Shown here piece by piece: positions 4,879-10,157 of a stretch of DNA of 24,972 nucleotides. A model generated the notes under the pieces. It did not search any database and was not told where the DNA came from. It saw nothing but the letters and a program-made list of their open reading frames with translations. Each line of letters starts with the position of its first letter. The first letter of the stretch is position 1. Made by a program: the position numbers and the translations under genes. The DNA is from a virus: IMG/VR virus record IMGVR_UViG_3300025151_000284, positions 1 to 24,972 of that record; one strand, written 5' to 3'.

Positions 4879-4907
4879 ATTATATATCAAAAAGTGTATA
4901 TTTTTAA
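4879..4907 (-). promoter_or_regulatory. Candidate sigma70-type promoter for the cupin/internal virion genes
   Basis: On the minus strand a perfect TATAAT (4879-4884) lies 17 bases downstream of TTAAAA (4902-4907; 4 of 6 matches to TTGACA). It overlaps the end of the adenylate cyclase gene and sits at the start of one of the longest non-coding gaps in the window (4802-4886), ahead of the 35-aa gene. The local AT-richness makes chance matches likely, hence the moderate confidence. Confidence 0.45.
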
Positions 4908-6623
4908 AGGTTTTTCTTTACCTTTTACTTTTATTGGTTTTAGCTGTTTTAATCGATAGCCGCAATATAGCTCTGTTTCTTCGCCAATAAGTATATCTGC
5001 TCCTGCTTCTTTAGTTGCTGATTCCAACCTAGCGGCAGTATTAACAGCGTCTCCGATAGCTGAGTAATCGAACCGCGTATCGCTGCCCATGTTGCCAATA
5101 ACCGCTTCTCCTGTATTTACGCCTACGCCTATAGCAACACCAATATTGGCTTTTATTATATTTTCTTGTATTTCTTTTGCACATTCTACTGCTATACGTT
5201 CATGGTGTAGCAAATCCATAGGTGCGTTAAATATAGCCATCATAGCATCACCTATGTACTTATCAACCATACCTCCGTATTTTTGTACTGCGTTTGACTG
5301 TATTGTTAATGCTTTGTTCATTATTTCAGTTACTTTTTCTGGTGGTAATGTTTCTGAAAGGGCTGTAAATCCTCTAACATCTGTAAATAAAAATGTACAA
5401 CGTCTTTTTTCTCCACCTAGCTTCAATAAACTCGGGTCTTTTTGTAAACGTTTAACTTGTCGTGGGTCTAGGTAATGTTCGAATTGTTTTTTAATTTGTT
5501 GTCTAAGTTTGTATTGTTCTCTAAAACGTAAGTAGAAAACTATAGCCCCCGTAATAAATTGTGAAACTAAAGACCACGTAACATCTATTAAAACACCTGT
5601 AGATATCGTGTAATAACCGTATAAGCCCGTTAAAGCCATCGTAAGTAAAGCTAGACTTATACCCCAAGTTATCCCTAAATAGCTTATAACTCCCCATACG
5701 AGCCCCACAGACGCTATAAATATTAATAATTCTAAAGCTAGTGCGTAATCAGGTATATAAGGGCTATCCTGAATTAAAAGAGATTCTGCAAGAGCCGCTT
5801 GTATTTTATGCGGTTCTAGTAAACCAACAGGCGTAGCAACCTGCGGCATAACGCCATTAGCAGTTACACCTACAAACACAAATTTACCGTTTACGTTCAT
5901 TTCTTGTAAATCAGTTTCTTCAGTATTTACCCAACTTATCCACTTACGACCTAAACTATCTGTTTTAACAGGAGGCAGTCCTCTAACCGCTATTTCTTGA
6001 ATACCATTAGCATTAGTTGTGATTATATATGTTGGAGTATTTGTTAAGCTTTTTAAAACCTGAGTACCGAAAGAAGCTGACCAACCATCAAGAGACTTTA
6101 ATAAGAGAGGAATTCTCCTAACAAGTTGGTCAACCTCAGTAGGAGCTATCGCAACCCCTTGCGTTATATCATCGTATAGATAATAATTTTCTTTTATTCC
6201 TGAAGATTGTAAACCATCAACATCAGGTCCTTTTATAACAGTTCCTGTAGTTTTAGGGTAAACGCCTTTACCATTTTCGAAGGTAGCTATCACACTTGGA
6301 GCATAACCTAACGCACTCGCGAATCTTTTATCTCCGCCTAGTCTATCTGCTTGTGGAAAACTTATAACCCAACCAACCCCAAGTGCACCTTTTCCTAATA
6401 TTTCTAATTGTATGTTTGCTAGACGTTCTCTAGGTAATGGATAACCCCCTTCTCGTTCTACATCTTCTTCAGTTATGTTTAAAATAACAAAATTACCAGA
6501 AGGTTTTTGTTCTTTTACAAATGCATCAAATACTTTTAATTTAAGTATTTCTGTAGGTGTTGATTGAAATAGCAAAGGTAGTGCTAATATAATCAGTAAA
6601 GGTAGTATATATAATTTCTTCAT
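4887..6623 (-). CDS. CHASE2-domain class III adenylate cyclase
   Basis: The 578-aa predicted inner-membrane receptor cyclase would make cAMP from ATP. Residues 1-20 are an N-terminal membrane anchor, about 25-285 an extracytoplasmic CHASE2-like sensor, about 292-365 three membrane segments, and about 405-578 a class III cyclase domain. Catalytic residues look complete: metal-binding D415 (FTDVRGFT) and D459 (YIGDAMMAIF), purine-recognising K455 and D519 (RFDYSAIGD), and N528 and R532 (VNTAARLES). K and D at the purine positions indicate ATP rather than GTP. It overlaps the FecR gene by ATGA, so the two are coupled, matching the CHASE2-FecR adjacency known in bacteria. A complete receptor cyclase in a phage structural region is unusual. 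The extracellular ligand is unknown. Confidence 0.92.
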   Translation of the reverse strand: MKKLYILPLLIILALPLLFQSTPTEILKLKVFDAFVKEQKPSGNFVILNITEEDVEREGGYPLPRERLANIQLEILGKGALGVGWVISFPQADRLGGDKRFASALGYAPSVIATFENGKGVYPKTTGTVIKGPDVDGLQSSGIKENYYLYDDITQGVAIAPTEVDQLVRRIPLLLKSLDGWSASFGTQVLKSLTNTPTYIITTNANGIQEIAVRGLPPVKTDSLGRKWISWVNTEETDLQEMNVNGKFVFVGVTANGVMPQVATPVGLLEPHKIQAALAESLLIQDSPYIPDYALALELLIFIASVGLVWGVISYLGITWGISLALLTMALTGLYGYYTISTGVLIDVTWSLVSQFITGAIVFYLRFREQYKLRQQIKKQFEHYLDPRQVKRLQKDPSLLKLGGEKRRCTFLFTDVRGFTALSETLPPEKVTEIMNKALTIQSNAVQKYGGMVDKYIGDAMMAIFNAPMDLLHHERIAVECAKEIQENIIKANIGVAIGVGVNTGEAVIGNMGSDTRFDYSAIGDAVNTAARLESATKEAGADILIGEETELYCGYRLKQLKPIKVKGKEKPLKIYTF

Positions 6624-7735
6624 CCGCTACTTTGTCTAATAGTGATGGTAGAATCCCCACCACCATTTATTTTTATTATATTAGAGACACCGTCTTGTAT
6701 CAAAATAACTGTGTACCCGTCACCTGTATTTAAATCAACCCGAGCAGACTCACTTACTTCTCTACGTAAACTTATTGTTTGTCCTGTAACTATTGTAGTT
6801 ATTTGTGTTTGAGTGTCTTGTCCTATAAGAGTGCCTGATATATTTACACGAGTGGCTAACCCAAGCTGTTCTTCTTCTTCTTTTACAGCTAAAGTGTCAA
6901 GTACGTCTAGTAAATCTTCTAAAAAATTTACGTCAAGATAATTTATATCTAGTTCTGTAAATTCTAAATCACTATCCTCTAAAAAATCTTCGTTTAAGTA
7001 ATCAATATCTAAATCGTTAAAATCTAACAAATTAACTGTTTTAGTGTTTGATGTTTCTTCTTGGGCTAAGCTGTCCTCTTTCGGCGGTGAAACTATTAAC
7101 ATATTATCAATAATATCTAATGATAAATCCAATATAACAGGTTTGCTAGGTGCGTTTTCAAACACATTAACCGTTGTTGCTTGGTATGGTTTATTTAACA
7201 AAACACTTCCTGTAGCTGTTACTACCTCTATCTCACCACTAGATAACCCTAAAGCATCAGGTAACAAAATTATAAGACTGCGACCAAGCTCATCTACTGT
7301 AGCTGTAAAGTCTGTACCTCTAATGGCTATATTAGCAGTAGGGGTACTAAGTTTTATGTTTTGTTTATCTATTCGATTTAAGTTACCTGTAATAAACCTA
7401 GCCGTACCTAATGCAAAGTTAAGAGACATTTTAGATTTACTAGGGTCAGGGTCATAGATATATTCATCTATAAGAAGTTGAGAATGCTCGGTAAGTTTTA
7501 CAACAGAATCATCAAGAAAGGTTATAGCCATGCGACCATTAGTTGTTATGGCTTCATCGTTGCTTTGAATAGCGAACTGTAAATTAGCGTCGTAAGTTTT
7601 ATCTCTTACTATTTGAGCAGAACCGTTTAGTTCAGATATATCACCTATATCAACAGCTTGTGCTTGTGCCTTGGTCGTTTTGAATGACGCAAACAGTACC
7701 GTTATTGCCAATAGATGTAATCTTAAGCCAGTCAT
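6620..7735 (-). CDS. Secreted FecR-domain protein with acidic repeats and curlin-like C-terminus
   Basis: This 371-aa protein has a Sec-type signal peptide (about residues 1-25, ending near KAQAQA). A FecR domain follows at about 60-155, with the typical segment LTEHSQLLIDEY and the later TPTANIAIRGTDFTA. Residues 240-275 contain two copies of an acidic 13-residue unit (LDIDYLNEDFLED and LDINYLDVNFLED). The final 30 residues are beta-rich and contain Q347-x-G349-x-x-N352, the curlin repeat signature, and end in RQSSG. Unlike classical FecR regulators it has no cytoplasmic anti-sigma region, and no sigma factor is nearby, so it probably acts outside the inner membrane, perhaps as ligand or partner of the CHASE2 sensor. 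Its start lies 86 bases inside the curlin-like gene, and its ribosome site is weak. Confidence 0.85.
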   Translation of the reverse strand: MTGLRLHLLAITVLFASFKTTKAQAQAVDIGDISELNGSAQIVRDKTYDANLQFAIQSNDEAITTNGRMAITFLDDSVVKLTEHSQLLIDEYIYDPDPSKSKMSLNFALGTARFITGNLNRIDKQNIKLSTPTANIAIRGTDFTATVDELGRSLIILLPDALGLSSGEIEVVTATGSVLLNKPYQATTVNVFENAPSKPVILDLSLDIIDNMLIVSPPKEDSLAQEETSNTKTVNLLDFNDLDIDYLNEDFLEDSDLEFTELDINYLDVNFLEDLLDVLDTLAVKEEEEQLGLATRVNISGTLIGQDTQTQITTIVTGQTISLRREVSESARVDLNTGDGYTVILIQDGVSNIIKINGGGDSTITIRQSSG

Positions 7736-8366
7736 TATCTTGTGTACTCGATTGTGTAATATTAAACGTTCTTGAATTACCTGTTTGGTCTAAATAAAAA
7801 TAACCACCTGCGTAACCAGACCCTGTAAAATTAACTGTGTTACTATCACCGTCTACATCTACATATGAAGTTCCGCCGTCATAATTTATATCAAAATCAA
7901 AAGTATTACCGTCACCATTAATTATCCAATCTAAATCTAATGTTGCAGCTAATGCTGAAGTTCCGTGGTCAAGAGTAAACGTATTTGTACTGCCTGTTAC
8001 ATCTACATTATAGTTAGAATTATCGATACCGTAAGTATTTGTTGGGTCACCTTGTATAGTGAACGTATTACTATCGCCGTCAAACTCAAAGAAACCTGTG
8101 ATAGAATCACCATAGATATCGCCTAAAAATTTATTAGTATCGCCTATTTGGTTTATATCTAAAGTCATAGTAATACCGTCTAAATCTAATGCATTCATAC
8201 TTCCTGCAGCAGATTGTAATCCACCTATGATATTACCTGAACCTAATTGTTCTAAATCAATATTAGCCGTAGCACCTGATTGGTCAACATATATTTCATT
8301 ATCAGCCCCGTATATCAGCGATGCACTCGTCATCACAATCAGGCTCATCAATTTTAATAGTTTCAT
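7650..8366 (-). CDS. Curlin-like secreted repeat protein (putative amyloid subunit)
   Basis: The ATG at 8366 is chosen over an in-frame one at 8393 because GGGAGG lies about seven bases upstream and the product then opens with a proper signal peptide (MKLLKLMSLIVMTSASLIYG). The mature protein (about 217 aa) has short beta strands separated by turns of form [Q/hydrophobic]-x-G-x-x-N. Units begin at residues 29, 40, 73, 95, 123, 149, 171, 194 and 218; those at 40 and 73 match the curlin Q-x-G-x-x-N exactly. Most internal Gln are replaced by hydrophobic residues and the turns are Asp-rich, so it is a diverged CsgA/CsgB relative. It ends with two cysteines (C226, C238). Context directly after CsgG supports it as the exported substrate. 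Amyloid formation is inferred. Confidence 0.8.
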   Translation of the reverse strand: MKLLKLMSLIVMTSASLIYGADNEIYVDQSGATANIDLEQLGSGNIIGGLQSAAGSMNALDLDGITMTLDINQIGDTNKFLGDIYGDSITGFFEFDGDSNTFTIQGDPTNTYGIDNSNYNVDVTGSTNTFTLDHGTSALAATLDLDWIINGDGNTFDFDINYDGGTSYVDVDGDSNTVNFTGSGYAGGYFYLDQTGNSRTFNITQSSTQDNDWLKITSIGNNGTVCVIQNDQGTSTSC

Positions 8367-9171
8367 CTTTTGCCTCCCAGAAATTTCTATCATACCCTAT
8401 TTTGACTATTTGCAAAACAGCCTCTTCAATGGCTCTTTGTAAAGCTAAAGTTGCAGGTTCATTTTCAGCATCCCCTGTTTCTATTTCAACGAGCTCTGTT
8501 CCTGCTTCTATAAACCTAAAAACATCTTGCGACCTTCCATAGCTATATATCTGTTTACTAACTAGAACGTCTATTAAAACTTCTCCAGTAGCTATAGAAA
8601 TCATTCTAAGAGCAACTGTTATATTATCTACTCTGTATTGCGTACTGGTTCCTATACCTAAATACCTTGCTCCCCTACCTCCGCTTTTAATATTTGTATC
8701 AAAACCAATAACGGCACCTTCCATCAGTACCCCTGCAAAAAGTAATGGCATGATTGGTTTAGGTCCATCAGTTTTTTCGTTTTGTTCTCTAGCAGAACGT
8801 ATAAGCTGTCTTTCTTTTGTTAAATTATCAAGACCAACTCTTTCAGCTACTCTGAAAAATCTACCTTCAGCAGTATGTTTTAAACTTCTAATCAGTAAAT
8901 GGCTTGGTGCTTGTGTAAGAGCAGTAGAAAATAAAGCAAACTCACTATTGCTTTTACGTTGTCCTGTTTGGTCTGTAAAACTATTAGGATAAACAGCAAC
9001 GACTATAGGAGTTTTTGGTTGTGATACTTGTAGTAATTCTTCAGATTGTATTTCTAAAACATTGGGTAGTGTTTTATGTTTTGATATTGTGTTGTTTACA
9101 GATACTAAACTACAACTAGAAAGCAAAATCGCCAATAGGCAACTGTATCTCGGTAATATTTCCATCAGCAT
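8302..9171 (-). CDS. csgG: CsgG-like curli secretion channel (outer-membrane lipoprotein)
   Basis: CsgG forms a nonameric outer-membrane pore that exports curli subunits. This 289-aa protein has a lipoprotein signal with lipobox LSSC (C20), and the mature length (about 270) is close to E. coli CsgG (262). Family segments are clear: VAVYPNSFTDQTGQ, FSTALTQAPSHLLIRSLK, ERQLIRSARE, EGAVIGFDTNIKSGGRGARY followed by LGIGTSTQY, ATGEVL and VFRFIEAGTELVE. At the pore constriction, E. coli Y51 and N55 are not conserved while the FSTA Phe (F81 here) is, and one residue is inserted, so gating may differ. The start overlaps csgF by 56 bases with no clear ribosome site; a start two codons later (9165) is equally possible. 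The end overlaps the curlin-like gene by 65 bases. Confidence 0.93.
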   Translation of the reverse strand: MLMEILPRYSCLLAILLSSCSLVSVNNTISKHKTLPNVLEIQSEELLQVSQPKTPIVVAVYPNSFTDQTGQRKSNSEFALFSTALTQAPSHLLIRSLKHTAEGRFFRVAERVGLDNLTKERQLIRSAREQNEKTDGPKPIMPLLFAGVLMEGAVIGFDTNIKSGGRGARYLGIGTSTQYRVDNITVALRMISIATGEVLIDVLVSKQIYSYGRSQDVFRFIEAGTELVEIETGDAENEPATLALQRAIEEAVLQIVKIGYDRNFWEAKDETIKIDEPDCDDECIADIRG

Positions 9172-9610
9172 CGGTTATTTTTAAAGTTATAATATCGTTT
9201 TCGATACTATATTCTATCGTGTTTCCTTCTAACGACAAAACACCTGACGTGCTTGGTGTTTCGCCAAACAAATTTTCCACAAGCTGTCTAGATAATTGTG
9301 CATATATTCTTGACTCTAGGTTTCTAATAAATCTTGCAAGAGTGGTGTTTTCTTTATCTCTTTCTATTTGTTCTTGTAAAGCTTTTATTTCTTCTTTGAT
9401 ACTCATTTTACGATTAAACTCTTGGTTTTCAATCGTTAAGTAGTGCGATGATGTATTTATACCACTGAAAGAGGGGTTTTTAAATTTATGAACTATTTGG
9501 TCTGCTTTAACATTCTGTATAAAAATACCAATAATTAACATTATCCCAATAATAGTAACAGTCCAAATTATTCTGTCTTTTTCTTGTTCCGATGTTTTTC
9601 GTTTTCCCAT
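9116..9610 (-). CDS. csgF: CsgF-like curli assembly factor
   Basis: CsgF is secreted through CsgG, caps its extracellular mouth and helps nucleate curli. This 164-aa protein has a basic N-terminus, a hydrophobic signal segment (about 14-33) and a likely cleavage after VKA (residue 36). The mature protein starts with FKNPSFSGINTSSHYLTI, which lines up with the E. coli CsgF N-terminal FRNPNFGG region that inserts into the CsgG pore. The helical middle (about 70-117) and the C-terminal beta segment (IEYSIENDIITLKITDADG, about 132-150) correspond to the rest of the family. The ATG is preceded by a strong AGGAGG that itself follows the upstream gene's TAG. Placement immediately before csgG supports the call. 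Confidence 0.9.
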   Translation of the reverse strand: MGKRKTSEQEKDRIIWTVTIIGIMLIIGIFIQNVKADQIVHKFKNPSFSGINTSSHYLTIENQEFNRKMSIKEEIKALQEQIERDKENTTLARFIRNLESRIYAQLSRQLVENLFGETPSTSGVLSLEGNTIEYSIENDIITLKITDADGNITEIQLPIGDFAF

Positions 9611-9621
9611 GAACGTTCCTC

Positions 9622-9807
9622 CTAGTGCAAAATTCTTTCTTTTTCCTCAGTGCCGTCTATACCTATTATTACTTTAGCCTCTGCTACAATAACTACGCCA
9701 TAAGCCTCTGCTTCTAAGTCGGCTTCTTCAAAACTGTTTGCACATATAAAAGGACCATCGTATATGGTATCTCCTACTCTAAACTCTGTTATATATACTT
9801 TTTTCAT
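9622..9807 (-). CDS. Small acidic protein of unknown function (61 aa)
   Basis: The frame begins in a TAATG overlap with the upstream holin-like gene and its TAG is followed at once by the ribosome site of csgF, so it is part of the same transcript. The peptide (starting MKKVYITEFRVGDTIYDG) is mixed beta/alpha, acidic, with no signal peptide, membrane segment or cysteine cluster. It is not recognised. Its position next to the curli module could mean a cytoplasmic accessory role, but it could equally belong to the preceding lysis/nuclease group. Confidence 0.6.
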   Translation of the reverse strand: MKKVYITEFRVGDTIYDGPFICANSFEEADLEAEAYGVVIVAEAKVIIGIDGTEEKERILH

Positions 9808-10157
9808 TAATCTTTTCTTTGGTCATCTCTGTCCGCTTTAGCTATTTTGTCTTGATTTATTAAATGAGGAACTCCTAATATAGTTTTAATCATAGTGTCT
9901 TGTCTTATGATTTCATTATCAAGACTTCTAATTCTGTCTATCAGGGCTACTAAGATACCGTGTTGTGAATCAAGTTTACCGCCCAATCTTTCCTCTAACT
10001 GAGTTATTTGACCAGCAACTTTTTCATCAACTACATCTAACTTACTTTCCATACCGTCTACAATACGCATTATAAGTTTATATATAAACCAACCTAATGC
10101 ACCTGCCGCTGCTATTGGAAAACCAACTTCTTGTATTAAAGTAACAGCAGACTCCAT
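9807..10157 (-). CDS. Holin-like membrane protein with coiled coil (116 aa)
   Basis: Residues about 10-31 form one hydrophobic segment (FPIAAAGALGWFIYKLIMRI). It is followed by a charged, heptad-like helical region (about 35-90) and a Lys/Asp-rich tail. This one-segment-plus-coiled-coil layout is seen in some phage holins and lysis accessory proteins. It lies downstream of the lysozyme and thermonuclease genes with TAATG junctions on both sides. A holin role is inferred from topology and neighbourhood only; two smaller membrane proteins at about 13.8-14.1 kb compete for that role. Confidence 0.6.
   Translation of the reverse strand: MESAVTLIQEVGFPIAAAGALGWFIYKLIMRIVDGMESKLDVVDEKVAGQITQLEERLGGKLDSQHGILVALIDRIRSLDNEIIRQDTMIKTILGVPHLINQDKIAKADRDDQRKD

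Follow-up and report, generated by a model that had tools for sequence, protein, structure and literature searches.

A degenerate curlin in the curli cassette of an HTVC023P-type phage, and a suggested curlin-like tail on its FecR-domain neighbour

In E. coli, curlins are exported with CsgG-CsgF, and CsgB serves as the cell-tethered nucleator. Phages are known to carry a version of this type VIII secretion system: CsgF-CsgG was published for pelagimyophages (PMC7029224) and, in 2022, the whole module including curlins for HTVC023P-type podophages and myophages (PMC9599517), with sibling capture or superinfection exclusion being proposed in the literature as the benefit of the fibre. According to PMC9599517, the viral modules lack CsgC, CsgD and CsgE, FecR is an iron-dependent regulator, and the FecR and cyclase genes are absent from bacterial curli operons; ‘one, sometimes two’ histidine kinases are placed upstream of csgF in the literature. 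At the protein level, a degenerate class (class D) of curlins, in which Gln/Asn are replaced and the repeats are long, is described by Sleutel et al. 2023 (PMC10192328).

The DNA analysed here (hereafter the window) is a 24,972-base IMG/VR virus record, an incomplete fragment. By its capsid protein, with 73% identity to the counterpart in phage 023Pt_psg01 and 70% to the one in Pelagibacter phage HTVC023P, the contig is of the HTVC023P type (pelagiphage-like). Its host is probably Pelagibacter, an abundant ocean bacterium. Between the capsid gene and the curli genes, the main genes are on the minus strand; they include virion structural and tail proteins and an endolysin, so the curli cassette lies within the late-gene block and would probably be expressed late. 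No tRNA was found in the window, and promoter or terminator signals show no clear excess. The features of interest are the following:

4887..6623, minus strand: CHASE2 sensor with class III adenylate/guanylate cyclase, 578 aa (PF05226 5.3e-22, PF00211 2.3e-19)
6620..7735, minus strand: exported FecR-domain protein, 371 aa (PF04773 4.9e-10)
6620..6715, minus strand: FecR tail, YTVILIQDGVSNIIKINGGGDSTITIRQSSG, including the stop; about 1.5 curlin-like units
7650..7735, minus strand: 86-nt overlap, encoding the curlin C-terminus (C226...C238) and the FecR signal peptide in two frames
7650..8366, minus strand: curlin-like fibre subunit, an ORF for a 238 aa preprotein; probable Sec signal, then degenerate curlin beta-solenoid
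8302..9171, minus strand: CsgG, outer-membrane curli secretion pore, 289 aa (PF03783 2.5e-47)
9116..9610, minus strand: CsgF, pore-associated curli assembly factor, 164 aa (PF10614 9.2e-18)
9807..10157, minus strand: small membrane and coiled-coil protein upstream of csgF, 116 aa
11133-11741, minus strand: endolysin, with the curli cassette just downstream

The operon runs csgF-csgG-curlin-fecR-adenylate cyclase, and neighbouring genes overlap at every junction. This order is conserved, where complete, across 242 viral or phage loci, the cyclase coming after FecR with or without a second curlin in between. The secretion and signalling genes are readily recognised: CsgG matches E. coli CsgG structures (phmmer 4e-46) and shows on inspection a lipobox, LSSC, while the cyclase matches the solved cyclase chain 6fht at 3.6e-29. 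The operon is the most informative feature of the locus and was left unused in the original prediction. Taken together, the reading of the gene as coding for the fibre subunit of a type VIII (curli) secretion system carried by the phage, including the proposals for export, fibre and FecR given below, is given a probability of roughly 0.72.

That the protein is a diverged curlin, as originally predicted, is borne out by homology to phage curlins and by a family profile match to solved curli. It is 33% identical over 97% of its length to the curlin of Pelagibacter phage HTVC008M (AGE60350.1; 6e-11) and is also homologous to the curlin of phage Melnitz, and the family profile (A2) matches curlin R15.5 (8c50, E 4.5e-6) and, weakly, E. 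coli CsgA (8enq, 0.0091). On its own, the window curlin scores 12.6 bits with Pfam Curlin_rpt, below the cut-off of 20.7, and has only a weak match in PHROGs (0.052); aligned relatives do pass the cut-off (Melnitz 26 bits, L209 38.8). By these comparisons the repeats are recognisable via the family and not via the window sequence alone. The mature protein has eight G-x-x-N motifs versus 3.0 ± 1.5 in 20,000 shuffles (P = 0.004), which is modest evidence by itself, and the strict pattern psi-x-psi-x-x-x-G-x-x-N-x-psi-x-psi occurs in two units only (P 0.007); pattern counting alone is weak evidence for a curlin. An alternative, longer start is possible at 8393, and the probable Sec signal, MKLLKLMSLIVMTSASLIYG, covers about residues 1-20 as judged by eye. 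There are 71 near relatives at the same position in the same operon, and dN/dS, in the part outside most gene overlaps, is 0.03-0.08, indicating strong purifying selection. Homology, operon context and dN/dS together establish that the gene is real, and the protein is a genuine, degenerate curlin belonging to a phage system described before.

The repeat units proposed at residues 29, 40, 73, 95, 123, 149, 171, 194 and 218, with a spacing of 11-33 residues, are correctly placed, and their first-position residues (Q29, Q40, Q73, F95, V123, I149, V171, Q194, S218) were confirmed. The x-G-x-x-N motif attributed to all nine units is present in six (40, 73, 95, 123, 149, 171) and missing from three, since the Asn is one residue late in unit 29 and replaced by Arg in unit 194 and by Gly in unit 218. 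Likewise, the count of four first-position Gln residues is right as far as it goes, but it overlooked Gln205 and Gln229, both of them unchanged in 51/51 relatives, and it included Gln194, which is kept in just 9/51. An alignment of these 51 relatives, down to 25% identity, shows five Gln columns without variation (29, 40, 73, 205 and 229 in preprotein numbering), along with several such G and N columns; in the centre, at 95, 123, 149 and 171, F, V, I, T, S, W and others take the place of Gln. The family thus keeps its Gln ladders only towards its ends. Hydrophobic residues do replace Gln in the central units, as had been noticed, and the recurrence of Gln-less central units across relatives makes this a conserved family trait rather than decay of the window copy. 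Altered ladders as such are not novel, both the degenerate class and the phage curlins of this cassette having been published already (PMC10192328 and PMC9599517).

Structure prediction, proposed earlier as a check on the beta-solenoid, yields an all-beta, solenoid-type AlphaFold2 model (pLDDT 82.8, pTM 0.80), close to the mean pLDDT of 83 given for curlins in PMC10192328. The top three BFVD models all belong to phage proteins that bear the name ‘Curlin associated’ (E 2.7e-6 to 1.3e-5, TM 0.70-0.77), and VIA-align finds beta-solenoid structures at Z 12-17, many of them non-polymerising. Foldseek against the PDB returns no match under 0.06, with SufB/SufD in the top rows; the solved curli are absent from both the Foldseek and the VIA match lists, an absence that is no evidence either way. 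The curlin is thus predicted to fold as a solenoid of stacked beta-arches. With so many non-polymerising solenoids among its structural matches, and with an acidic composition (the description ‘Asp-rich’ is accurate, the mature chain having 31 acidic and 3 basic residues), the protein could be read as a calcium-responsive beta-solenoid adhesin that does not polymerise. Such a reading is highly improbable, as the gene stands in a curlin operon and the turn aspartates are not conserved: the relatives have D, N, S, T or G interchangeably at the turn positions, no turn column is Asp in at least 90% of them, and the one Asp column conserved to at least 90%, 231, lies outside the turns. The calcium response suggested originally therefore finds no specific support. 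The acidic curlin R15.5 is reported to have polymerised with EDTA, Ca2+ only raising aggregation (PMC10192328); calcium may affect bundling, as for any acidic fibre, and a specific site is not indicated.

The 86-nt overlap between the curlin and FecR genes is present in 68/69 loci of the window clade. Both Cys positions that it encodes in the curlin are found in 44/45 distinct curlins of this clade, and all 45 have exactly two Cys. A Cys pair also occurs in every phage curlin clade: in myophage curlin 1 it lies in an internal loop (two Cys in 81/86), and in curlin 2 it is often C-terminal (36/49). Judged from these sequences, a conserved disulfide whose position has shifted between clades is likely.

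Several curli components are missing from the window. CsgE and CsgC have no match within the 24,972-base fragment, and there is no second curlin gene in the cassette of this incomplete fragment, since FecR and cyclase overlap there (by ATGA); myophages often have such a gene after fecR. The one in HTVC008M (L081:8435-9760) combines a PA14 domain (2.7e-6) with curlin repeats (Curlin_rpt 5.2e-8), and is possibly a glycan-binding fibre tip. Directly upstream of csgF, most phage loci encode one or two membrane and coiled-coil proteins of 92-116 aa; further csgF-upstream loci are L081:4697-5259, L213:9775-10098 and L287:9111-9413. Pfam finds no kinase domain in the csgF-upstream proteins tested, and the published ‘histidine kinase’ is probably this 92-116 aa membrane protein, which would lack a kinase domain.

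The protein at 9807-10157 has a weak holin-like PHROG match (0.023), and together with the endolysin just upstream of the cassette this lends some colour to an explanation in which the pore is the working part: CsgG-CsgF would be a lysis-timing pore or an uptake channel, with the curlin as passenger or substrate and no functional fibre made from it. This was put forward for phage Melnitz, in which clumping was not seen (PMC9004378). The proposal assumed that there was no CsgA/B homologue, but the Melnitz record annotates two curlin-repeat proteins, and the strong purifying selection on the window curlin, with its invariant ladder residues, is hard to square with a mere passenger. It is considered unlikely.

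The FecR-domain protein is the second point of interest. AlphaFold2 predicts a FecR fold (core Z 15.5 to the PupR FecR domain), a low-confidence, disordered acidic linker and six C-terminal strands. By inspection, the protein begins with an apparent signal peptide directly followed by the FecR fold; a cytoplasmic sigma-binding part and a transmembrane helix before the FecR domain are not visible. Its N-terminal stretch resembles the ‘cell surface anchoring domain’ of an adhesin (5ix9; Z 6.9, Foldseek probability 1.00); PMC8277102 yielded no information on this domain.

The FecR tail, YTVILIQDGVSNIIKINGGGDSTITIRQ, can be read as a run of curlin elements in the order motif a, arc, motif b, arc, motif a. 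Across 54 diverse sequences the last Gln never varies, and a second Gln, 21 residues earlier, is conserved to at least 90%. The C-terminal motif [NSTD]-x-psi-x-psi-x-Q occurs in 129/133 cassette FecR proteins versus 0/20 unlinked FecR proteins and 2.3% of shuffles, and the signal persists after clustering (47/49 at 85%, 15/16 at 60% and 6/6 at 45%). A model of the curlin unit finds its best match within the last 30 residues in 118/132 copies, versus 12/89 shuffled sequences and 3/36 controls, with no single match in the tail above 5 bits, and profile-profile comparison aligns the tail, weakly, to the last curlin unit (E 0.0015, prob 17%). Because individual scores are low and the probability is 17%, homology of the tail to curlin is suggested rather than proven, and convergence is possible. 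The tail is also short, and the weak structural matches of the C-terminus include beta-propellers, so it may not form a true solenoid. The curlin-like FecR tail is unreported and new here: no description of the tail, the Cys pairs or the gene overlaps was found in the available parts of PMC9599517 and PMC7029224, and those of PMC9599517 contain none of CsgB, nucleation or signal peptide.

These features bear directly on how the protein is named. It matches PF04773, its fold matches PupR-type anti-sigma regulators, and PMC9599517 names it an iron-dependent regulator; as a transcription regulator of the operon, however, it would have a fold starting right after a signal peptide with no visible sigma-binding cytoplasmic part, and a curlin-like tail that 20 unlinked FecR proteins lack, while the family name is the sole basis for iron. 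The near-universal tail in particular argues against such a role, which is regarded as very unlikely. Given the apparent signal peptide and the curlin-like tail, the ‘FecR’ protein looks less like an iron regulator than like a fibre-anchored nucleator, cap or sensor, and with less confidence its tail is a candidate substitute for the missing CsgB.

It is conceivable, and the least improbable of the alternatives, that the protein is purely a sensor, the tail binding unpolymerised periplasmic curlin and signalling via CHASE2 to the cyclase. FecR genes adjoin CHASE2 proteins outside curli (the BiofilmReg operon, PMC5192318), cyclases are found near control FecR loci, and in the window the cyclase follows FecR with overlapping genes. 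The binding is hypothetical, though, and the likeness to 5ix9 fits anchoring at least as well.

Under the fibre-subunit reading, and reasoning from what is known of the families, the curlin would (i) cross the inner membrane by Sec late in infection, (ii) leave the cell unfolded by way of the CsgG-CsgF pore, with no CsgE involved, and (iii) form a surface fibre by end-to-end stacking. More tentatively, the FecR-domain protein, once exported, would stand in for the missing second curlin: its FecR domain might keep it cell-bound, with the tail serving as seed or cap for the fibre, and it could report fibre status to its CHASE2 cyclase partner, given that FecR-CHASE2 pairs exist outside curli (PMC5192318). 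The fibre might hold sibling cells near the burst or block rival phages. In its boldest form, which is speculative and rather doubtful as a whole, phages would have rewired curli by joining a FecR anchor/sensor fold and a curlin seed in one exported protein that nucleates or caps the amyloid at the pore, tells the CHASE2 cyclase about fibre status and so couples assembly to cAMP. Phage-made amyloid in Pelagibacter has already been proposed; the FecR tail is a concrete lead to how the fibre may be seeded, capped or sensed. A report of fibrillation of a phage curlin was not found in the literature.

As to distribution, the nearest CsgG proteins in one genome-collection scan are mostly at most 48% identical. 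Hyphomonas sp. TMED17 carries csgF-csgG-curlin-fecR-cyclase on a 705 kb contig (L245:9474-15497), which looks to be the only clearly bacterial contig with the full cassette. A bacterial curli operon can thus contain FecR and cyclase genes, which contradicts PMC9599517. The Hyphomonas FecR lacks the terminal Gln, so the tail is suggested to be a phage feature, with one bacterial example behind this. Four contigs labelled ‘MAG’ (L287, L299, L306, L243) were rejected as bacterial curli operons, their gene content pointing to phage contigs: neighbours judged by eye include a T4-like helicase, ThyX, ClpS or a heme oxygenase-like protein, and L299 is so assigned for its likeness to L287. Large IMG/VR contigs (L193-L242, up to 337 kb) with ClpX- or ClpS-like neighbours also carry the cassette, which suggests that its carriers include jumbo or freshwater myophages and not pelagiphages alone. 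A CsgG 40% identical to that of the window is encoded in a 1.5 kb record (OR851715.1) that bears the name Salmonella phage S.Kent 1-2-1 and may be mislabelled host DNA.

Among the closest known systems is the pelagiphage type VIII module of HTVC023P-type podophages and pelagimyophages (PMC9599517, PMC7029224), with which the cassette shares genes and order, CsgF, CsgG, curlin, FecR and adenylate cyclase; it differs in that FecR and cyclase are not separated by a second curlin gene. The HTVC008M curlin likewise stands beside CsgG and FecR and has the same invariant Gln positions, but there the Cys pair sits within an internal loop, whereas that of the window clade is C-terminal and overlaps the FecR start. 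Class D curlins (PMC10192328) resemble the window curlin in hydrophobic replacements in the Gln/Asn columns, long repeats and a solenoid that is still predicted; the described example is bacterial, whereas the window protein comes from a family of phage curlins with a conserved loss of Gln from the central units. The FecR-CHASE2 pair of the BiofilmReg operon (PMC5192318) also places an exported FecR-domain protein beside a CHASE2 sensor, with a histidine kinase output and LysM on FecR there, as against a cyclase output and a curlin-like tail here. Curlin repeats and CsgG-CsgF export are common to the window cassette and the E. coli CsgA/CsgB system; CsgB, CsgE and CsgC are not recognisable in the window fragment, and the FecR tail is the sole other curlin-like segment seen in its cassette.
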